A stretch of DNA of 64,000 bases, taken from positions 1-64,000 of the forward strand of contig CAUJET010000091.1 in assembly GCA_963169665.1 (NCBI GenBank), written 5' to 3'. Positions 47,482 to 57,800 of this stretch are shown in pieces. The translations under genes were made by a program, and so were the position numbers. Within the stretch, counting starts at the first letter, position 1; each line of letters starts with the position of its first letter. The notes beneath the pieces were generated by a model that was not told the DNA's origin, made no database searches, and saw only the letters and a program-made list of their open reading frames with translations. The DNA comes from Actinomycetota bacterium. GTDB taxonomy: Bacteria; Actinomycetota; Acidimicrobiia; Acidimicrobiales; Ilumatobacteraceae.

Positions 47482-47593
47482 AACGCCTCCCCTCAGTGCG
47501 ACGCCATCAAGTGTTGCACTCCGGCCACGGTCGGCGGTGCGGCAGCGTCCACCCCACTCTCGAGAAGCTGCGCATGCGACGGAACCGAATGCC

Positions 47594-48220
47594 ATGCTCG
47601 AACGTCTGTGTGACGTGGATCCGACGGCCGGTGTGAGCGAGGCGAACGACGCGATCGTTCGCGACGTCGCGCCCGACGCCGTCGCGGCCGTCGGACACCT
47701 CGAGATCGAGTCGATCGACGCAGTGCCTGTCGGCGCGACGTCGTTCACGGCGTTCTACGAACGAGAGCGCGGTGCGATCGGGCGAGCGCTCGCGATCACA
47801 CTGCGCGACGACGAACTCGCTGCCGACGCGCTCGACGAAGCCATGGCCCGCGCGTACCAACGCTGGGACCAGGTGAGCCGATACGCCAACCCGGCCGGCT
47901 GGGTGTACCGCGTGGGTCTCAACTGGGCGAGATCGATGCTGCGCAAACTCACCCGACCGGCGCGGACGCCGCGAGCGTTCGAGTTGGTGTCATCGGCGCC
48001 GACGTTCGACGCCGACATCGACCGGGCACTGCGCTCGCTCACGGTCGACCAACGGGCGGTCGTCGTGTGCCGGTTCTTCATCGGCTACTCCGAAGCGGAG
48101 ACAGCAGAGGCCCTCGGCATCAGACCGGGCACCGTGAAGAGCCGGCTCAGCCGGGCGCTCGATGCCCTCCGGTCGTCCACCCTGATCAACCCGCCGACCA
48201 CCCGGGAGGTGACCCGATGA
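47594..48220 (+). CDS. sigma-70 family (ECF-type) RNA polymerase sigma factor 1
   Basis: The product (208 residues from ATG 47594) has region 2 at about 55-120 (TAFYERERGAIGRALAITLRDDELAADALDEAMARAYQRW, then GWVYRVGLNWARSMLRK) and region 4 at about 140-190 (LRSLTVDQRAVVVCRFFIGYSEAETAEALGIRPGTVKSRLSRALDALR). No region 1 or 3 is present, as in ECF sigmas. GTG at 47537 is the only other in-frame start, and weak EPN similarity to sigma 2 extends above 47594, so the start is uncertain. The stop overlaps the propeller-protein gene (ATGA). Confidence 0.88.
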   Translation: MLERLCDVDPTAGVSEANDAIVRDVAPDAVAAVGHLEIESIDAVPVGATSFTAFYERERGAIGRALAITLRDDELAADALDEAMARAYQRWDQVSRYANPAGWVYRVGLNWARSMLRKLTRPARTPRAFELVSSAPTFDADIDRALRSLTVDQRAVVVCRFFIGYSEAETAEALGIRPGTVKSRLSRALDALRSSTLINPPTTREVTR

Positions 48221-50139
48221 GCGACTCCATCGACGAACTGGTCGACGACCCTGCGCTGCAGCTCCGTCTGCAACGCCATCTCGAGTTCTCCGCCCACGAC
48301 GCGAGGCTGCGACCGTCGCCCCTCAGCGGGATCGTCGCACGAGCGACCCGACGACGTCGTCGACATCGCCTCGCGGGTGCCAGTGCGGCATCGCTGCTGG
48401 GCATCGCCGCCGTCATGGTGGCGTTCTCCGCATCGTCATCAGCTCCAGCGATCACGCCCGCCGACATCGCTCCCGAGCTCGAGGACACGACCGTCGACAC
48501 CGCGACGACCGAGCTCTCGGCGTCGGGGACCGATGCCGTCGAGTCCCGAGACGCCGACGACGAACCACTCGCAACGGAGGCGTTGCCGCCGATGATCGGC
48601 GTGCTCGGAGCCCCTGTCGAGACGTGGCGGTCAGAGGCGCCGGATGCGGCATCGGCAGCAGTCGTCGATCAGGTGTTCCCGGCCACCGGGATGTACTCGG
48701 GCCACATCGTGTGGACGACGATGGAGCAGAGCCCTCGCGACTTCAGATCGGACGTGAGCATCTCGCCCGACGGCGTGCACTGGGACCCGGTCGCGACCTC
48801 TCCCGACCTCGCGGTGATCGGCGGTACCGAGCGCGACGGCACCCTCGTCCTCATCGGATACGCCCCGGAAGGCGACCCGGATGCGGGAGCTCTCGTCGCG
48901 GCGACGTCGGTCGACGGAGGGCAGACGTGGCAGAGGACTCCTCTCGGCTACGACCTCGGCGCGGCGTGGGAATCGGGCGTGATGACGGTGAGTCTGACGG
49001 CGAGCCAGGTGGAGGTTCGTGATGGCATCATCGTCGCGTCGATCGAACCGACGGCCATGCTCGACATCGACGCGATCGCCGGTGACGGCACGATGATGAA
49101 CGGGTACGTCGTCGACGATCTCGGGATCGCCGTCCTGGCTGCGTGCGAGCCATCGGGCGACTGCTTCGCCGGGCCGGCAAACGACACCGGTGGACGGGAC
49201 GTCGAGCAGAGGTTGACCTGGGAACAGGCGGGTCTCGACGAACGAGAGCGTTCGTACCTGACCGACGAACCATTCCTCGTCCGGATCGAGGATGGACGTG
49301 CCGAGCGGGTGTTCGACCTGCCGTCGACCTACCCAGGCGGAACGCGGCTCGGGCTCGGCGAAGGTGGGTTCCTCGCCCTCGTGCAGACCTTCCCGGACGG
49401 GGCGCCCGGCACGGTTTCCCCGGCTTCGCTGTTCGCCAGCGTCGACGGTCGGTCCTGGAGCCTCGTCGGGCGCCCAGGCGTCCAGGCCGGGGCCGTCGGT
49501 TCCGTCGGCGGAATGATCGTCGTCGCAGGGCCGAGCCTCGACACCGGATCGAACCTCGTGTTGGCAAGCTCCGACGGGGTCGATTGGCGACGGATCGAGG
49601 TGCCGTCACCGGGCGTCGAGACGTGGGACCCGATGCCGTACGGCGCGGCGATCGCGGAGGGTCGCATCGCCCTGCTGATCACGCGTCGCCTCGAACCGCA
49701 GATGGTCCGCCAGGTCGAGAACGGCGTCGTCCTCGAGTCAGAAGACGGTATGGGCGATGCAGTCGTCTACGACGAAGCGACCGGCGAGGTGTTGGGCGGC
49801 TGGACGTCGACGGGCGAGTACTCGGGCCGACTTCGCAAGGGCGACGATGCCAGCATGGTCGTGCTGGACGACTCGGGTGCGGTGATCGCCGAGTTCACCC
49901 TCGACGAAGCGATGCAGGCGATGCAGGAGCAGATGAAGCCGACCGAGATGGAGTTGAGCGTCGTGGTGTCCGACGACATCACCACCTGGTCGTGGACCTC
50001 GCTGAACGACCTCGTCGACGAACCGCTGTCGTGGGCCGAGTACATCCTCATGACCCACGACGGTCTGGTGATCCCGGCCCAGGTGGCGCTCGACCCCGAC
50101 TTCGCGACCACCGAACGTCGGATCTTCGTCGCTGCCTGA
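48217..50139 (+). CDS. single-pass membrane protein with Asp-box repeats (candidate anti-sigma sensor 1)
   Basis: The 640-residue protein has a cytoplasmic N-terminus of about 50 residues ending in an Arg-rich stretch (ARATRRRRRHR), one membrane segment (about 52-72), a Thr/Ser/Asp-rich linker and a large extracellular region. That region holds Asp-box (BNR-type) turns S-x-D-G-x-x-W at about 181-189, 231-238, 408-414 and 451-457, so a sialidase-like beta-propeller is likely. It overlaps the sigma factor gene by 4 bases, which suggests it holds the sigma factor at the membrane. No zinc-type anti-sigma HxxxCxxC motif is seen, so this role is inference. A paralogue lies at 52798. Confidence 0.75.
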   Translation: MSDSIDELVDDPALQLRLQRHLEFSAHDARLRPSPLSGIVARATRRRRRHRLAGASAASLLGIAAVMVAFSASSSAPAITPADIAPELEDTTVDTATTELSASGTDAVESRDADDEPLATEALPPMIGVLGAPVETWRSEAPDAASAAVVDQVFPATGMYSGHIVWTTMEQSPRDFRSDVSISPDGVHWDPVATSPDLAVIGGTERDGTLVLIGYAPEGDPDAGALVAATSVDGGQTWQRTPLGYDLGAAWESGVMTVSLTASQVEVRDGIIVASIEPTAMLDIDAIAGDGTMMNGYVVDDLGIAVLAACEPSGDCFAGPANDTGGRDVEQRLTWEQAGLDERERSYLTDEPFLVRIEDGRAERVFDLPSTYPGGTRLGLGEGGFLALVQTFPDGAPGTVSPASLFASVDGRSWSLVGRPGVQAGAVGSVGGMIVVAGPSLDTGSNLVLASSDGVDWRRIEVPSPGVETWDPMPYGAAIAEGRIALLITRRLEPQMVRQVENGVVLESEDGMGDAVVYDEATGEVLGGWTSTGEYSGRLRKGDDASMVVLDDSGAVIAEFTLDEAMQAMQEQMKPTEMELSVVVSDDITTWSWTSLNDLVDEPLSWAEYILMTHDGLVIPAQVALDPDFATTERRIFVAA

Positions 50140-50153
50140 CATCTCTGTGGTGA

Positions 50154-50173
50154 GGGCCTCTCGATCGAGGCCC
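50154..50173. terminator. hairpin after first sigma/propeller pair
   Basis: GGGCCTC-TCGATC-GAGGCCC forms a 7-bp stem with a 6-base loop, 15 bases after the propeller-protein stop. It separates the first pair from the O-antigen-ligase gene. Confidence 0.6.
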
Positions 50174-50255
50174 AGCTGGCGTCGACAGACCAACCCGCCC
50201 GGCCGGCATCGGCGCGACATCGCTCGAGGGAACCGAACTCGTACGGTGGGAGTGC

Positions 50256-52178
50256 ATGGGGGTGCGCTGGATTCCGTTCACCCTGGGGGCGATGGTCATC
50301 GCTGCCGTGGTGGCGGTCGACCCGGGCGGGCTCAGCCCGTTCGGACCGACCCGGTGGTGGCTCGTGTCGTCGCTGGCGCTCGCCGCCGGTGGATCGGCCT
50401 GCTGGAGCGCGACGCGGCGTCTCGACCGACGGTCGGCACGGCTCTGGGGCCTCCTCCTGGTACTGCTGACCGTGTCGGCCGTCGTCAACGGCGACACGAA
50501 GGTCGCCCTGCTCGGTCACCCGGTCCGTCACCTCGGACTGCTCACGTGGGGACTGTTCGCGCTCGTGTTCGCAACCGGCCAGCAACTGGTCCGCACCGAC
50601 GATCGGCGGATCGTCGTGCGCTCGACCGTGGTCGCCGCGGTCGGCCTCGGTGCGTGGTGCACCTGGGAGCTCGCCGTCGGGCCTCCGATCGCGCTCGCAA
50701 CCACGACCGAGCGGCTTTCGGGCCCCTTCGGGTCGGCGGCGATGCTGGGGGCGGCATGCTGCCTGCTGACCCCGATCTGCACGATGGTGGTCGTCGACCG
50801 CCACGCGTCCACGTCATGGCGCATCGCTGGTGCGGTGGGCGCCGCCACGAGCGTGCTCGCGCTGATCGGGTCGGGAACCCGTGCCGCCTGGATCGGGATG
50901 GCGATCGCAGCCGCCGTGCTGTTGGTGCGCCGTCGTCCCTCGACGCGTACCGTCCTCGTCGGGGCGGGCTCGGTCGTCGTCGCACTGGCGGTGCTGTCGC
51001 CTCGTCTCGACGACATCGTCGATCGGTCGAACGGCACCTCGTCGCGCCTCGACGAGTGGGCGCTCGCCGGCCGGGTGATCGGCGATCACGTGCCGATCGG
51101 CACCGGACCCGAGGGGTATCGCATCGCTGCCGTCGGAGCGGTCGACGCCGACTACGAACTCGTCCACGGGCGCGATCGCGTGCTTCCCGATCGTGCGCAC
51201 AGCGGACCGCTCGACGTGGCCGCCATCGGCGGATTGCCCGCGGCCACCGCGTACGTGCTGCTGGTGGGCGGCATCGTCTGGCGTGCCGTGCGCCAGATGC
51301 GCGCGGCCGACCCGATGACGACCGGCCTCTCCGTCGCCCTCGTCGCCTACGCGGTGCAGCAACTGTTGCTGTTCCCGCTCGCCGAGTTGGACGGGGTGTG
51401 GTGGCTCGTCGCCGGCATGCTCATCGCTGCAGCGCCCGACCAGGCGATGAACACCGAGGGCACCGCGCCCGCCGCCATGTCAGGAGCGGCGAGAGCGGCG
51501 GCACCGACGTCGATCACGGCGGCACCGACGTCGATTCCGACGGAGGCGACGGACCTCACGGGTGTCGACGCGACGGCGAACACCGGTGCGCCACATGCCG
51601 ATGCGACGTGGGCCGGCGTCCGACGTGGCCGGGTGCGGGCGATGGCGATCGCGGCGTTCGCGCTGGTGCCGGTGGTGTTCGTCGCCGGCGTGCTCGACGT
51701 CGCCGCCGATCGGCAGGCCCGACGAGCGATGACTGCCCGAGACACCGACACTGCGGTGACAGCAGCCGAACGATCGGTCGACCTCCGGCCCGACGATCTC
51801 CGGTACCGGTCGGTCGCGATCGAAGCGCACCGCTCGAGGGGCACGCTCGCCGACATCGACGTCGCCCTCGATCATGCCGACGCCGCGCTCCGATGGTCGC
51901 CCGACGACCCGATCGCCCTCGACGCTCGTGCCACCCTCCTGCTCGATCGAGCGGCGATCACGGGAACGACGGTCGACACCGACGCCGCGGTCGAAGCCTG
52001 GCGGCGACTCGTCGACCGGGATCCGGTTCGAGCCCGATGGCTGGTGCAGTTGGGTCGTGCCGCAGCGCTGGCCGGCGACATCGACGAAGCGCACGCAGCT
52101 CTGACGGAGGCCGCCATGCTGCGACCCGACGACGCATCGATCGCCGCACTGCTCGCCGAACTCGAGGCCCGATCGTGA
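50256..52178 (+). CDS. O-antigen ligase-like polytopic protein with TPR tail
   Basis: A 640-residue protein with about ten membrane segments in residues 1-400, including the Wzy_C-type large extracellular loop with GTGPEGYR and HSGPLDVAAIGGLPA, typical of O-antigen ligase/polymerase folds. After a Thr/Ala/Pro-rich linker with a 21-bp duplicated stretch, a further membrane segment (about 465-485) leads to a C-terminal TPR-like helical region (AERSVDLRPDDLRYRSVAIEAHR, DHADAALRWSPDDP). It may polymerise or ligate surface glycans. TACGGT lies 9 positions before the ATG. The stop overlaps the second sigma-factor start by one base, an unusual link between glycan assembly and transcription control. 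Confidence 0.82.
   Translation: MGVRWIPFTLGAMVIAAVVAVDPGGLSPFGPTRWWLVSSLALAAGGSACWSATRRLDRRSARLWGLLLVLLTVSAVVNGDTKVALLGHPVRHLGLLTWGLFALVFATGQQLVRTDDRRIVVRSTVVAAVGLGAWCTWELAVGPPIALATTTERLSGPFGSAAMLGAACCLLTPICTMVVVDRHASTSWRIAGAVGAATSVLALIGSGTRAAWIGMAIAAAVLLVRRRPSTRTVLVGAGSVVVALAVLSPRLDDIVDRSNGTSSRLDEWALAGRVIGDHVPIGTGPEGYRIAAVGAVDADYELVHGRDRVLPDRAHSGPLDVAAIGGLPAATAYVLLVGGIVWRAVRQMRAADPMTTGLSVALVAYAVQQLLLFPLAELDGVWWLVAGMLIAAAPDQAMNTEGTAPAAMSGAARAAAPTSITAAPTSIPTEATDLTGVDATANTGAPHADATWAGVRRGRVRAMAIAAFALVPVVFVAGVLDVAADRQARRAMTARDTDTAVTAAERSVDLRPDDLRYRSVAIEAHRSRGTLADIDVALDHADAALRWSPDDPIALDARATLLLDRAAITGTTVDTDAAVEAWRRLVDRDPVRARWLVQLGRAAALAGDIDEAHAALTEAAMLRPDDASIAALLAELEARS
51498..51538 (+). repeat. 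21-bp tandem duplication inside O-antigen ligase gene
   Basis: GCGGCACCGACGTCGAT followed by four bases occurs twice in a row at 51498 and 51519, encoding AAPTSIT and AAPTSIP in the linker between membrane and TPR parts. Confidence 0.8.
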
Positions 52179-52798
52179 TGGAACCGAATCCGCCCGATGG
52201 GTGTGTACCGGACGTGGACTTCACGATCGATGCTGCGAACCCACCTGGCACCCCTGGCGCGGTCACTCGAGCCGCCGACGACGCCATCGTCGTCGAGGAC
52301 GTGCGGACTCGGTTCGCCAGCTTCGAGGACTTCTACCTCTCGAGCCGAGCGTCGGTCGGTCGAGCGCTCGCCCTCACCCTGCGCGACGACGATCTCGCCC
52401 GCGAGGCCATCGACGAAGCCATGGCCCGCGCCTACCAGCGTTGGTCGCACGTCGGCCAGCTCGACAACCCCGGCGGCTGGGTCTACCGGGTCGGCCTCAA
52501 CTGGAGCCGCTCGGTCATCCGTCGACTGCGTAGGAACCCGCCCATCTGGATCGCGCAACCGGGCGACGCGCCGGCAGCGGCGCCCACCGACCCGTCGATC
52601 GACGCCGCGCTCGACACCCTGAGCGTCGACCATCGTGCCGTGGTCGTGTGCCGGCTGCTGCTCGGCCTCAGCGAGCAGCAGACCGCCGACGTCCTCGGCC
52701 TCCGCCCCGGCACCGTCAAGAGCCGTCTCGCCCGGGCGCTCGATCGCCTCCAACCACTGCTCGCTCCCCTGCTCACCCCTCCCGAGGAGAACCGCTGA
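52178..52798 (+). CDS. sigma-70 family (ECF-type) RNA polymerase sigma factor 2
   Basis: A 206-residue paralogue of the sigma factor at 47594. Region 2 (FEDFYLSSRASVGRALALTLRDDDLAREAIDEAMARAYQRW and GWVYRVGLNWSRSVIRR) and region 4 (LDTLSVDHRAVVVCRLLLGLSEQQTADVLGLRPGTVKSRLARALDRLQ) align without gaps over most of their length. ATG at 52178 overlaps the O-antigen-ligase stop by one base (TGATG); GTG at 52175 is an alternative. Its own stop overlaps the next start by one base in the same way. Three genes are thus translationally linked. Confidence 0.9.
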   Translation: MEPNPPDGCVPDVDFTIDAANPPGTPGAVTRAADDAIVVEDVRTRFASFEDFYLSSRASVGRALALTLRDDDLAREAIDEAMARAYQRWSHVGQLDNPGGWVYRVGLNWSRSVIRRLRRNPPIWIAQPGDAPAAAPTDPSIDAALDTLSVDHRAVVVCRLLLGLSEQQTADVLGLRPGTVKSRLARALDRLQPLLAPLLTPPEENR

Positions 52799-54789
52799 TG
52801 AACACCCCGCATCGCACCCCCGACCACCAGCACCTCGCCGACCGCCTCGAGCACCGCGCCGGCCACGTCGATCTCGGCCCCCCGATGCTCGACGTGGTGG
52901 TCGCCCGCGGACGTCGCCGGCAGCACCGCCGTCGCACCGCCGTCGGGATGGCCGCAGTCGTCGGCATCGCCGGCGGGTCGGTCGCCGCCGTCGCCGTGCT
53001 CTCGCGGCAGGCCGAACCCGACCGCATCACCGCGGCACCCACCGACGACCCCTCCGGCACCGACCTCGCGGCCGCCAGCACGGTGCCCGGGCCGACGAAC
53101 TCGACGCCGACCGAGGTCGTGCCTGCGCAGTTCGCGCCGTCGCCGTTCGTGTGGAACCGGGTCGACCCCGACAGTGCCGAAGCGGTCAGCTTCTACATGG
53201 GCGCTCCCGACAACACCGTCGCCGGCAGCGGACCGTTCGTGGTGTGGTCGACCGCACCGGCAGTGAGCGATGACTACTCCGGTGTGCTCTGGCGATCCGA
53301 CGACGGCCTCACGTGGGAGCAGGTCGCGTCGCCACCTGCGCTCGTGGGGCGCAACGTCGCCGAACTGAACGGGCGGTTCCTCACCTACGGCACGGCACCG
53401 ACGACTGCTGCGGGCCGGAGGAGCGATCTCGCGATCGGCACCTCCGACGACGCCGGCCGCACGTGGGCCACCACCGTGCTCCCGCTCGACACGAGCGACC
53501 TCCTGGCCGAGCAGGGCGTCACCTCGGTCGGGGTGAACGCCACCTCGATCGCTGCGACGGCCAACGGTGTGTTGGTGAGCGCTCAGGTGACGGCCAACGT
53601 CGACCTCATGTCGAAGCTCCCGACCGACGTACGCGGACTCGGGTGGGAGCTCGTCGAGTCCGGCGTGCGCGTGCCGACCGGCGAAGGCTGCGACCCCGTC
53701 ACCGCCTCGACGATCTCGTTCGGCGGCCCCGTCGCCACCGAAGCCCCCGTCGACACGGCGACGCCGACGACCACGCCCGCACCGGCGTGCGACACCCGCA
53801 TCTTCACGTGGGCGGAACTGGGGATCTCCGAACGCGCTGCGGAGGCGATGATGCATCCCGACGTGCGGATGTTCTTCTCGGCCGACGGCGCCACGTTCAC
53901 CGAGATCGACCCGGTCGGCGTCGACGACGGGGCGACCGACGTGCGCCTCACCTCGCTCGGCGACTCCTTCGTCGCCTCGGTGAACCAGGTGAACCCGGAT
54001 GGCTCGATGTCCACCGCGCTGTCCACCTCCTCCGACGGGCGCGAGTGGGCTTCCCTCGGCTCGGCCCCGGTGACTTGGACGGAAGGGTTCGGCGCCGTCG
54101 GCGACCGGCTCGTCGTCACCGGCTACGACATCGACGCCAACACGCAGGTGATCGCCGTGCGCGATCCGTCGGGCGCGTGGAACACGACCTCGATGAACAG
54201 CTTCGTCCTCCCGAGCGACGGTGTGCAGGCCTCCATGGGCGGCGGTTCGATCGCGATCGGACCGAACGGCATCTCGGTGATCGGTGCGTTGTTCGTCGAC
54301 CCGATCGCCGAGATCGGCGGCGTGACGTTCTCGGTGGACGGTTTCACCATCGAGGTCGACGACACCAGCTACACCCATCGGGTGATCGACGTCGCCACGG
54401 GCGACGTGCTCGCCACGGTCAGCATGGAGGCGTCGTCGAACCCCGAACTCGTGTCGATCGTGTACGGCGACCAGCAACCCGTGATCGAAGTACGCCGCGA
54501 GGCGGGCGGCGACGTGATCGCCACGTACACCTACGACGATCTCTCGAACGCGGTCGCCTCCGCCACCGGTGCACAGCCCGCCGGGCCGAGGATCTTCCTG
54601 ATGCACAGCCGTGACGGTGTCACCTGGTCGCGCGACGCGCTCGACGAGATCGCCGGCGAGGCCGTCACCGGCACCGGTGGCATCCGGTTGACCGACACCC
54701 AGGTGATCGTGGCAGCCAACCTCGCCGGTGAGCGCAACCCCAACGGCACTCCCAAGCAGACCCTCCTCGTCGCCACCCCCACCTCCTGA
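52798..54789 (+). CDS. single-pass membrane protein with Asp-box repeats (candidate anti-sigma sensor 2)
   Basis: The 663-residue paralogue of the protein at 48217 has a short cytoplasmic part with the same PPMLDVVVARGRRRQHRRR-like basic end, a membrane segment at about 47-69, a Ser/Thr/Pro linker and an extracellular propeller-like region with Asp-box turns at about 167-173, 216-223, 361-367, 411-417 and near 600 (SRDGVTW). Shared blocks such as FTWAELGI/LTWEQAGL and VIDVATGDVL/VYDEATGEVL show homology over the full length. It overlaps the sigma-2 stop by one base. A role as membrane sensor and sigma inhibitor is inferred from pairing only. It ends at a large inverted repeat. Confidence 0.75.
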   Translation: MNTPHRTPDHQHLADRLEHRAGHVDLGPPMLDVVVARGRRRQHRRRTAVGMAAVVGIAGGSVAAVAVLSRQAEPDRITAAPTDDPSGTDLAAASTVPGPTNSTPTEVVPAQFAPSPFVWNRVDPDSAEAVSFYMGAPDNTVAGSGPFVVWSTAPAVSDDYSGVLWRSDDGLTWEQVASPPALVGRNVAELNGRFLTYGTAPTTAAGRRSDLAIGTSDDAGRTWATTVLPLDTSDLLAEQGVTSVGVNATSIAATANGVLVSAQVTANVDLMSKLPTDVRGLGWELVESGVRVPTGEGCDPVTASTISFGGPVATEAPVDTATPTTTPAPACDTRIFTWAELGISERAAEAMMHPDVRMFFSADGATFTEIDPVGVDDGATDVRLTSLGDSFVASVNQVNPDGSMSTALSTSSDGREWASLGSAPVTWTEGFGAVGDRLVVTGYDIDANTQVIAVRDPSGAWNTTSMNSFVLPSDGVQASMGGGSIAIGPNGISVIGALFVDPIAEIGGVTFSVDGFTIEVDDTSYTHRVIDVATGDVLATVSMEASSNPELVSIVYGDQQPVIEVRREAGGDVIATYTYDDLSNAVASATGAQPAGPRIFLMHSRDGVTWSRDALDEIAGEAVTGTGGIRLTDTQVIVAANLAGERNPNGTPKQTLLVATPTS

Positions 54790-54916
54790 CCCCTCCGCGT
54801 TGGGTCGTTCCCGCGTCACCACCACGCGTTCGTGCACACACGCATCCCCGGCCCGGGCGCGTGTGTGCACGAACGCGTGGATACGACGCGGAAGTGACCA
54901 AACGCGCTGGGGGTCA
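54787..54916. repeat. stop-to-stop inverted repeat with perfect 22-bp core
   Basis: The perfect core arms are 54822-54843 and 54859-54880 (22 bp, beginning CCACGCGTTCGTGCAC) around a 15-base loop. Similarity continues outward imperfectly to both ends, so arms of 57 and 58 bases match at about 47 positions. The outermost three bases of each arm are the TGA stop codons of the two convergent genes. It fills the whole intergenic space. It could serve as a strong bidirectional terminator or be a former mobile palindrome. Confidence 0.9.
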
Positions 54917-55849
54917 GCGGGGGCGGGGCAGTTCTTGTTCGAGGGTGAGGACGGGTTCGAACAGGTCGCCCAGGTCGGCCACCCGGTCGAGCACGTCGCT
55001 CGTCTCGAACACCAGGCGCAGGTCGCCGTCGGCGCAGCGCTGCACCTCGTCCCAGGTCACCGGTGTGCTCACCCACGGCCGCACCCGGGCACGCATCGAG
55101 TACACGCCGATCGTGGTCTTGTGGCGGCTGTTCTGGCTCCAGTCGATGAAGATCTTCCCCGGCCGCTCCACCTTGGCCATGATCGTCGTCACCCGGTCGG
55201 GCAGCTTGCGCTCCAGCACCTGACCGACCGCGAGCGCGAAGTCGCCGGTGGCCTCGTGGGTGCACGGCGTGTTGAGCGGCACGTACAGCTGCAGTCCCTT
55301 CGAGCCCGAGGTCTTGCAGAACCCCTCGAGGTTCACCGAGGCCAGCACCTCCTGCACCTCGAGCGCGATCTGGCAGCACTCCACCACCGTCGCCGGCGCA
55401 CCGGGATCGAAGTCGAACACCACCGCCCGGGGCGTCTCGAGGTCTGACGACAGCGCCATCGGCACGTGCAGCTCGAGCGCGGCCAGGTTCGCCGACCACA
55501 CCAGCGAGGCCGGTTCGTCGAGCCGGCAGTACCCGATGTCTCCCCCGCGGTCACCCGGCCCGATGGCGGTCTGCACCCAGTCGGGCCGGTGCTTCGGACA
55601 CCGCTTCTCGAAGAAGCCCGGCTTGTCCGCTCCGTCAGGGAAGCGGAGGAAGGTGATGCACCGACCGGCGAGATGCGGCAGCACGAACGGCGCGATGCGG
55701 GCGTAGTAGTCGATCACCTCGGCCTTGGTGAACGCCGGCCCGGGATTGCCGGTCGACGGGTCGCTCGCCGGGTACAGCACCTTGTCGAGGTTGGTGAGCG
55801 TGAGGTCGCGCCCGCCCACGCTGACGGGCGTGCCCTTGCTCGCCGCCAT
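54914..55849 (-). CDS. ligD: LigD-type DNA polymerase/primase domain protein
   Basis: The 311-residue protein is the polymerase (PolDom) module of bacterial end joining: LTNLDKVLYP at the N-terminus, FLRFPDGADKPGFFEKRCPKH in the middle, the catalytic acidic pair in VVFDFDPG and the GSKGLQLYVPL nucleotide-binding motif. It fills gaps with ribonucleotides or deoxynucleotides at broken ends. The ligase and phosphoesterase domains of full LigD are absent here and must be encoded elsewhere. It lies 14 bases after ku in one operon and converges on the sigma/propeller block. Confidence 0.93.
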   Translation of the reverse strand: MAASKGTPVSVGGRDLTLTNLDKVLYPASDPSTGNPGPAFTKAEVIDYYARIAPFVLPHLAGRCITFLRFPDGADKPGFFEKRCPKHRPDWVQTAIGPGDRGGDIGYCRLDEPASLVWSANLAALELHVPMALSSDLETPRAVVFDFDPGAPATVVECCQIALEVQEVLASVNLEGFCKTSGSKGLQLYVPLNTPCTHEATGDFALAVGQVLERKLPDRVTTIMAKVERPGKIFIDWSQNSRHKTTIGVYSMRARVRPWVSTPVTWDEVQRCADGDLRLVFETSDVLDRVADLGDLFEPVLTLEQELPRPR

Positions 55850-55863
55850 CGTTCAGCGGCCGG

Positions 55864-56814
55864 TCACGCGCTCTTGCGGACGCGCTTGGGCTTCGCGATC
55901 GCGGCGGTGTCGTCTTCCGAGGCGTCGGATGCGTCGGCAGCAGCGGCCTTCGACGAGGCCCTCTTCGCGGTCCCCGACGTCGAGGACTTCGCGACGGCCT
56001 CCTCGTGCGGTCCGCCGGCCGGATGCCGCTTGCGCGCGTCCTTGGCGGCCTTCACGCTCGCCTCGAGCGCGGCCATCAGGTCGACCACCTTCGGTGGCGC
56101 AGCGACGGCGGCGGGCGCCTCGAACTCCTCGCCGCCCGCCTTGCGCTCGATGAGATCGAGGACCTGCTCGCGGTACTCGTCGCGATACTTGTCGGGCTCG
56201 AAACTGGCCGACAGGCTCTCCACGAGCGCCTCGGCCATCTTCACCTCCTTCGAGCTGATGTCGATCTCGTCGAGACCCTCGAGCTCGTCGATCGACTCGA
56301 TCTTCACGACCTCGTCGGCGAACACCATCGTGCTCATCAGCAACTTGCCGTCCTGGGCGCGCAGCGCGGCGACGTACTGCTTGTTGCGCATCACGAAGCG
56401 ACCGATCGCGACCTTGCCCGCTTCCTCCATCGCCCGGGCCAGCAGCACGTACGGCTTCGGCGTCTTGTCGGGGGCGACGATGTACGGCGTGTCGAAGTAG
56501 ACCGGGTCGATCTCGTCGAGGTCGACGAACTCCTCGAGGTCGATGCTCTTGGTGGCCGACGGGATGAACGGTTCGAGCTCGTCGGGGTCGACCACGACGT
56601 AACGGCCCTTCGACAGCTCGTAGCCCTTCACGATGTGGTCGTCGGGCACGTCCTCGCCGGTCTCGGCCGACACCTTCTTCAGACGGATGCGGCTCATCGT
56701 GCGGTCGTCCAACTGGTTGAACGAGACGCTCTTCTTGCTCACACCGTGGAAGAGCTTGATCGGGATGGCGACGAGGCCGAAGCTGATCGTCCCACTCCAC
56801 ACTGGTCTCGGCAT
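55864..56814 (-). CDS. ku: Ku DNA end-binding protein
   Basis: The 316-residue protein starts with RPVWSGTISFGLVAIPIKLFHGV, the standard bacterial Ku opening, followed by FNQLDDRTMSRIRLKKVSAETGEDVP and a YVLLARAMEEAGKVAIGRFVMRNKQYVAALR dimer-core block. The last 60 residues are Lys/Ala-rich (KRHPAGG, AKRASSKAAAAD, KPKRVRKSA), the usual DNA-bridging tail. It threads onto broken DNA ends and recruits LigD. ATG at 56814 was chosen; the upstream open frame has no Ku similarity. ligD follows in the same direction. Confidence 0.95.
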   Translation of the reverse strand: MPRPVWSGTISFGLVAIPIKLFHGVSKKSVSFNQLDDRTMSRIRLKKVSAETGEDVPDDHIVKGYELSKGRYVVVDPDELEPFIPSATKSIDLEEFVDLDEIDPVYFDTPYIVAPDKTPKPYVLLARAMEEAGKVAIGRFVMRNKQYVAALRAQDGKLLMSTMVFADEVVKIESIDELEGLDEIDISSKEVKMAEALVESLSASFEPDKYRDEYREQVLDLIERKAGGEEFEAPAAVAAPPKVVDLMAALEASVKAAKDARKRHPAGGPHEEAVAKSSTSGTAKRASSKAAAADASDASEDDTAAIAKPKRVRKSA

Positions 56815-56921
56815 CCCCGTAGTTTGCCCGAAATCGTCCGGTCCAAACAGCCCCGGATCGCACTGCCCGCGATTCGAGTCGGCGCGAACGAGACCGGAGC
56901 AGGATCGGATCGGTGCCGGCG

Positions 56922-57800
56922 TCAGCCGGCGAGAACGGCCCGCGCCACGAGATCGGTGCCGAACGCGGTGAGGATCGCCAGGTAGAGCAGGCCGGTCGCG
57001 GCCATCACGGCGGAGTAGTACCGCTCCTTGAGCGCCAACTTGGTCACGTACACCAGCACGATCGTCGTCACGGCGCACGCACCCCAGAACCAGCCGAGCG
57101 TGCCGTTCCACCCATCGTCGACCTCGCCGCTCCACACCGCGAGCATGCCGGTGGGCAGCAGCAGCGACGCCACCTCGATCGGCCACACCCACCCGAGGGC
57201 ACGCACGAGATCGTTCAGGTGCTTGCGGGGCAGGCCGGGCTGCACGAGATACCAGTGGCCGAGCAGCATCGCATCGGTGACCGCACCCAGGAACAGGGCA
57301 CCGGTGAGCGTGCGCAACAGGGCGACGCCCATGTTCTCGGCACCGCCGGTGCTGGCATCGATGCCGGCGGCGACGAGACCGACGAGACCGATGGCCGGCG
57401 CCACCAGGTCGAGCACCGGTGGGAATTCCGGGCCCGTGGGCGCCTCGGCGTCCACGGTTGCGGTCGCGGTTCGGTCGATGCCGGTCATCTCGGCCACGCG
57501 GGCCGACCGCCGATCGTGCTCGGCCGCCGCACCCGACACGCCGGCCACTTTGCGCTGCACCGACACCACCAGCACCGCCGTCGCCGCGATCGCGACGGCC
57601 AACGCCGAGATGTCGCGCACCGGCACGAAGCCGAACGCCGCACCCGCAGCGAATCCGCCGAGCGCCATCAACAGGTAGGTGCCGCGCAGCAGCCAGCCGT
57701 ACCCGAGACCCACTTCACGACGCCGAGTGGTGAACCAGAGGAAGAACAGACCGCCGACAGACCACTGCAAGAGGACGGTCGCTGCATCGAGCCGGATCAC
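56922..57800 (-). CDS. polytopic membrane protein of unknown function
   Basis: A 292-residue protein with about eight membrane segments in two groups (about 5-85 and 130-290), separated by a cytoplasmic stretch of about 45 residues rich in Arg, Ala and Thr. No known transporter or enzyme motif is recognised. A GHWYLVQPGLPRKHLNDLVRALGW stretch between helices contains His residues that could bind haem or metal, which would fit a role in electron transfer beside the ferric-reductase-like operon across the divergent gap. This is speculation. Start ATG at 57800. Confidence 0.7.
   Translation of the reverse strand: MIRLDAATVLLQWSVGGLFFLWFTTRRREVGLGYGWLLRGTYLLMALGGFAAGAAFGFVPVRDISALAVAIAATAVLVVSVQRKVAGVSGAAAEHDRRSARVAEMTGIDRTATATVDAEAPTGPEFPPVLDLVAPAIGLVGLVAAGIDASTGGAENMGVALLRTLTGALFLGAVTDAMLLGHWYLVQPGLPRKHLNDLVRALGWVWPIEVASLLLPTGMLAVWSGEVDDGWNGTLGWFWGACAVTTIVLVYVTKLALKERYYSAVMAATGLLYLAILTAFGTDLVARAVLAG

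Follow-up and report, generated by a model that had tools for sequence, protein, structure and literature searches.

ECF sigma factors are among the commonest signalling systems of bacteria. In the window analysed here, a stretch of 64,000 nucleotides (64 kb) from a member of the Actinomycetota, two such sigma factors are each encoded directly in front of a single-pass membrane protein that carries Asp-box repeats outside the membrane. This raises the question whether these membrane proteins are the anti-sigma factors of their neighbours and, if so, how they hold the sigma factor and what they sense.

Layout of the two modules and their sigma factors

The four open reading frames described in the original prediction are present with the sizes and the overlaps (ATGA in the first pair, TGATG in the second) that it gave. 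The features of the locus are:

47581..47608, plus strand: predicted ECF promoter of sigma1, GGAACC-N16-CGTCTG; strict match to a clade-wide motif of fixed spacing with a start codon behind
47594..48220, plus strand: sigma1, ECF sigma factor as read from ATG, 208 aa; probable real start GTG 47615 (leaderless, 201 aa), based on the promoter
48217..50139, plus strand: partner1, whole ORF, 640 aa; ATGA overlap with sigma1
48217..48369, plus strand: partner1 cytoplasmic part, residues 1-51, predicted two-helix anti-sigma domain; pattern conserved in 111 aligned partners, docking modelled on the ortholog L055
48370..48426, plus strand: partner1 transmembrane helix, residues 52-70, from hydropathy
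48427..50139, plus strand: partner1 Asp-box ectodomain; three strict Asp-boxes, homologous to partner2
50229..50256, plus strand: predicted imperfect promoter of the ligase gene, GGAACC-N16-AGTGCA; equivalent sites in ligase loci of relatives
50256..52178, plus strand: O-antigen ligase/polymerase (Wzy_C) and TPR gene (PF04932, 7.4e-13); probable start GTG 50262
52178..52798, plus strand: sigma2, ECF sigma factor as read from ATG, 206 aa; probable real start GTG 52214 (leaderless, 194 aa), based on the promoter
52180..52207, plus strand: predicted ECF promoter of sigma2, GGAACC-N16-TGTGTA; second of the two strict matches in the window
52798..54789, plus strand: partner2, whole ORF, 663 aa; TGATG overlap with sigma2
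52798..52941, plus strand: partner2 cytoplasmic part, residues 1-48, predicted two-helix anti-sigma domain; conserved pattern, model of the ortholog L055
52942..52998, plus strand: partner2 transmembrane helix, residues 49-67, from hydropathy
52999..54789, plus strand: partner2 all-beta Asp-box ectodomain; four strict Asp-boxes, AF2 pTM 0.72, Foldseek matches to sortilin and sialidases

Given the promoter positions, the ATG codons of the two sigma genes either precede the promoter or fall within it, and the GTG codons are the probable starts. Module 2 consists of the ligase gene, sigma2 and partner2; the ligase gene, too, shares a TGATG with sigma2. The original prediction had overlooked the ligase gene and the promoter, and it did not recognise that the same cytoplasmic module carries many ectodomains, of which the propeller is only one. 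On the opposite strand, genes for a LigD primase-polymerase domain and for Ku (bacterial NHEJ; 54914-57192) adjoin module 2.

Both sigma factors match Sigma70_r4_2 of Pfam above the cut-off (2.5e-14 for sigma1 and 8.5e-12 for sigma2) and Sigma70_r2 weakly, with 22.5 and 15.2 bits against a cut-off of 24. They contain the sigma2 and sigma4 domains only, which is the definition of ECF (group 4 sigma-70) factors, and the AF2 model of the ortholog L055 has two helical domains matching ECF structures. The nearest NCBIfam model of both is the SigE family (TIGR02983), yet the scores of 109.1 and 94.4 bits stay below its cut-off of 141.55, and neither is a member. Both protein pairs are homologous: the sigma factors are 60% identical over a core of 143 residues, which leaves out their N-terminal extensions, and the ectodomains of the partners show 25% identity across 552 residues.

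The same genome yielded 38 sigma matches. Directly behind most of the sigma genes inspected there lies a gene whose product spans the membrane once and has a short, mostly basic N-terminus but a different ectodomain. Many further pairs of an ECF sigma factor and an overlapping single-pass membrane protein (L041-L052) have unrelated ectodomains, one of them TolB-like by eye. These pairs are a genome-wide paralogous expansion.

Pairing and the cytoplasmic part of the partners

When genome contigs were scanned with the sigma alignment, 79 loci were found; most are from Acidimicrobiia, and a few come from Micromonosporaceae, Egibacteraceae and Nitriliruptorales. Together with further class-wide loci the clade comparison comprised 128 different sigma genes, two of which lie at a contig edge, leaving 126 that could be judged. 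A partner is present for 122 of the 126 (119 detected by script, two frameshifted partners and one fusion), and the junction is mostly a stop-start overlap, usually ATGA. No recognisable membrane partner was found for the other four clade sigma genes (L188, L189, L191 and L192, in genomes G382, G445 and G503). The original prediction had staked its reading on a gene pairing conserved in relatives, and with these numbers the pairing is indeed conserved. Within the family (221 genomes from 27 genera searched) relatives of partner2 occur in nine genomes, each time with a sigma gene upstream, of which the one in L037 is frameshifted. Such a partner also accompanies 53 of 58 less related SigE-type sigma factors. 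In one MAG, Acidimicrobiales MAG-27, and so far only there, a single ORF of 702 aa (L130:4953-7061) joins a clade sigma factor, the cytoplasmic module, the transmembrane helix and an Asp-box ectodomain in a natural fusion. Frameshifts were seen in the sigma gene of L037 (G196:C1) and in the partner genes of L062 and L065; they are probably assembly errors or decayed copies.

The domain plan of the partners, like their pairing, is read directly from the sequences. Ectodomains are variable and swappable, about half of them being of the Asp-box type, and the cytoplasmic module and the transmembrane helix are shared. According to hydropathy, partner1 and partner2 have a single transmembrane helix each. 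In the clade the cytoplasmic part comprises 36-63 residues (mean 42) with a net charge of about +3, and the transmembrane helix starts at residue 37-64. The conserved positions in 111 aligned partners are hydrophobic, 96-99% at three of them, and are spaced as in a helix; an Arg-rich stretch comes after them. Pairwise distances between cytoplasmic parts track those between the sigma factors (rho 0.31), which is not seen for the transmembrane helix (-0.06) or the outer juxtamembrane region (0.06). The short, basic, non-zinc cytoplasmic part that had been proposed was borne out, with cysteine in none of 79 cytoplasmic parts. Hence the zinc motif HX3CX2C of class I or zinc anti-sigma factors (ASDI, ZAS), which is optional in class I, is missing. 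Nor do the partners begin with the four-helix domain, about 100 residues long, of class I, since the transmembrane helix starts at residue 37-64 and the model has two helices. None of 71 partners searched matched a Pfam anti-sigma domain. With the cytoplasmic part as query, phmmer found nothing but chance matches in the PDB, mainly ribosomal L22; the NCBIfam matches of the partners (CU044_5270, SCO2400) lie mostly on the transmembrane region and were not counted as evidence.

For the structure of sigma factor and cytoplasmic part, a single-chain AF2 model was made of L055, a module 2 ortholog with both genes in the same frame, by reading the TGA stop as W, purely as a device. L055 was aligned with sigma rows, the natural fusion L130 and the read-throughs of four similar loci; only six rows span the cytoplasmic part. 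The model reached a pTM of 0.81, with a pLDDT of 88-95 in both helices of the cytoplasmic part (H189-204 and H212-228) and about 60 in the linker. Modelled without the sigma factor, the partner2 region had a pLDDT of 37-60 with a deeper alignment, an indirect control as this is a different ortholog from L055. The original prediction also depended on a predicted contact with the sigma regions, and the L055 model indeed folds as one compact unit in a known two-helix pose. The sigma pose resembles that of EcfG/NepR (5uxx; Z 14.0, 2.9 A over 153), SigW/RsiW (5wuq; Z 12.9, about 3 A) and CnrH/CnrY (4cxf; Z 11.8, 2.9 A over 142), whereas RNAP-bound ECF sigma factors differ from it by about 27 A. BldN, of the class III system in which the three-helix domain of RsbN binds two sigma molecules, matches over the sigma4 domain only (59 residues).

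The prediction combines a short cytoplasmic part that forms two helices with a closed sigma2/sigma4 pose, as in class II anti-sigma factors of the CnrY/NepR type, and we lean slightly towards calling the modelled pose class II-like. The partner might instead belong to another type, a class I domain without zinc or a class III domain like RsbN, the class II pose being an AlphaFold artefact. The known anti-sigma classes share almost no sequence (PMC7406223), and SigW-RsiW, a class I pair, also scores well. We nevertheless consider this unlikely, as the cytoplasmic part, at 36-63 residues, lacks a zinc motif and is predicted to form only two helices, whereas class I domains have four helices and a mean length of about 101 residues (PMC7406223).

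A different interpretation is that the membrane protein is a co-transcribed target of the sigma factor, such as a surface lectin or adhesin, and that the sigma factor is controlled otherwise. The tight operon, the resemblance of the ectodomain to glycan-active proteins and the ligase gene, by which the targets of the sigma factor would be envelope genes, are in line with it. However, the partner is kept clade-wide although its ectodomain has been replaced repeatedly around a constant cytoplasmic module, SigE-type sigma factors with other promoters mostly have such a partner as well, and the predicted docking and the L130 fusion also speak against it. This makes the target reading improbable, even a little more so than that of another anti-sigma type. 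We regard it as likely that each membrane partner is the cognate anti-sigma factor of its sigma factor, because of the conserved pairing, the fusion, the conserved cytoplasmic pattern with its co-divergence with the sigma factor, and the docking model.

Promoters, ligase gene and ectodomain

Upstream of the clade sigma genes lies GGAACC(A/G)AA...GYGTSTR, in its strict form GGAACC-N16-YGTSTR. The spacing from GGAAC to the -10 element is exactly 17 in 79 of 90 clade cases, and an in-frame start codon follows 57 of 67 strict sites at 4-9 nt, as in leaderless mRNAs. Relative to single-base shuffles, in which codon structure is disregarded, the relaxed motif is enriched in the clade (63 of 125 members, 3 expected) and near chance in other SigE-type sigma factors (3 of 57, 1.7 expected). 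The motif thus tracks the sigma clade, which is what autoregulation would lead one to expect. Within the window, both strands together contain exactly two strict sites, at 47581 and 52180, one per sigma gene. The whole genome has nine, compared with three in a reversed control. Besides those of the two sigma genes, one of them (L227; G000:C113:37067-37094) has a start codon directly behind it, an ATG at 6 nt, and a long plausible ORF. This ORF encodes a lipoprotein-like product of at least 498 aa and is, from its sequence, a candidate for a further regulon gene.

A ligase homolog is found directly upstream of 26 of the 88 clade sigma genes with enough upstream DNA. A promoter site is present at 6 of 21 tested ligase loci (0.26 expected); the equivalent sites are those of L033, L034, L035, L037 and L038, most with a GTG 5-6 nt behind. 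The site is weaker in the window but better kept in the relatives G208, G206, G124 and G207, with GTG 5 nt behind, which suggests that the ligase gene is a target of the sigma factor; on balance, we favour this reading of the promoter sites. Asp-box ectodomains and ligase genes are associated (Fisher p 3e-5). However, the sigma tree shows that the two states are largely inherited together, with six changes, which leaves too small a number of independent pairs for a test; thus the correlation is no independent evidence of function and was dropped as such.

Strict Asp-boxes ([ST]xDGxx[WF]) occur three times in partner1 and four times in partner2, compared with 0.035 per protein expected from composition shuffles. 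At least two are present in 53 of 119 clade partners, but in only 1 of 53 partners of other SigE-type sigma factors. Other clade ectodomains, each with a single or few members, include RCC1 and SleB/peptidoglycan-binding types; the partner of L058 (5474-6541), for example, has SleB/peptidoglycan-binding matches in place of Asp-boxes. The AF2 model of the partner2 ectodomain is all-beta (pTM 0.72), and its best Foldseek matches are the sortilin Vps10 domain and sialidases (probability 1.0, E down to 7e-10). A large propeller had been proposed; the Asp-box repeats and these matches agree with it, but the TM-scores are low, about 0.25.

In view of these matches the ectodomain could be a membrane-anchored sialidase-like glycosidase. 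Yet the FRIP motif and the conserved catalytic residues of GH33 sialidases are not a feature of these proteins. Of 50 Asp-box ectodomains just 2 have a FRIP-like motif. Apart from the Asp-box residues, invariance or near-invariance is confined to a few Gly, Pro, Leu and Ser, and none of the Arg, Tyr or Glu residues is invariant. No partner matched a sialidase family above the cut-off. A glycosidase is therefore very improbable. That the Asp-box ectodomain binds a glycan as its ligand is conceivable, though we would rather bet against it.

Proposed mechanism and comparison with known systems

For the modules as anti-sigma systems, we infer the following course of inhibition, ligand, release and regulon output. 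The cytoplasmic part would consist of an amphipathic helix (L..RL..HL...A) and a second helix that ends in the Arg-rich stretch next to the membrane. Docked on the sigma factor as predicted, the two helices would clamp the sigma2 and sigma4 domains in the closed CnrY/NepR pose and keep the sigma factor off RNA polymerase. The Asp-box ectodomain would sense a signal from outside, presumably a surface glycan or protein, and ligand binding would lead to release of the sigma factor by regulated proteolysis or conformational change. Intramembrane proteolysis is possible, since the genome has an M50-type protease homolog, which scores below the family cut-off; such proteases are, however, near-universal. 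The free sigma factor would then transcribe its own leaderless operon from GGAACC-N16-YGTSTR and, in module 2, also the O-antigen ligase gene.

More tentatively, the partners may represent a large undescribed class of actinobacterial anti-sigma factors with a minimal two-helix, CnrY/NepR-like domain of no detectable sequence kinship and with swappable ectodomains, in which the Asp-box branch has a surface glycan as its signal and regulates a surface-polysaccharide ligase via a leaderless autoregulated operon. If true, a module of 45 residues on swappable sensors would explain many of the sigma pairs of Acidimicrobiia, the class II clamp would have a convergent second home, and an envelope feedback loop would take concrete form in an Asp-box receptor that controls the ligase for a surface polysaccharide. 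The defined promoter and the leaderless starts make the regulons predictable. A recognised class I domain is present in only about a third of putative anti-sigma factors (PMC7406223). The literature searched barely covers Acidimicrobiia together with anti-sigma factors, and in it, the main ECF classification aside, we found no description of Asp-box or propeller anti-sigma factors or of this sigma pairing.

Polysaccharide-sensing anti-sigma factors (RsgI) and the class II clamp are already known; the combination, the actinobacterial setting and the Asp-box ectodomain are new as far as tested. In CnrY and NepR, both of class II, two helices embrace the sigma2 and sigma4 domains in a closed pose (PMC4598750, PMC8103513). 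CnrH-CnrY and EcfG-NepR share the two-helix clamp and are among the best structural matches of the L055 model, and CnrY is also short and membrane-anchored. However, no sequence similarity to them was found, the systems described here are from Actinomycetota, and the partner bears its own large ectodomain, whereas for CnrY the sensing falls to another protein, CnrX, and NepR lets go under the action of PhyR, a mimic.

In the SigI-RsgI systems of Clostridium thermocellum, several paralogous pairs exist in which the outer domain of the anti-sigma factor senses polysaccharides (PMC12203970, PMC4711584). Several paralogous pairs and a membrane anti-sigma factor with an outside domain, in the modules described here a predicted one, are common to both systems. 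SigI does not belong to the ECF group, and the cytoplasmic domain of RsgI is of a different kind. In the actinobacterial groups ECF48, ECF52 and ECF53 the ECF sigma factor is linked to a membrane part, which in SCO4117 has an outside carbohydrate-binding domain (PMC8999054). These proteins resemble the L130 fusion, but they are fusions with a zinc-finger domain, whereas in the systems described here sigma factor and partner are almost always encoded by separate genes and the partner has no zinc motif.
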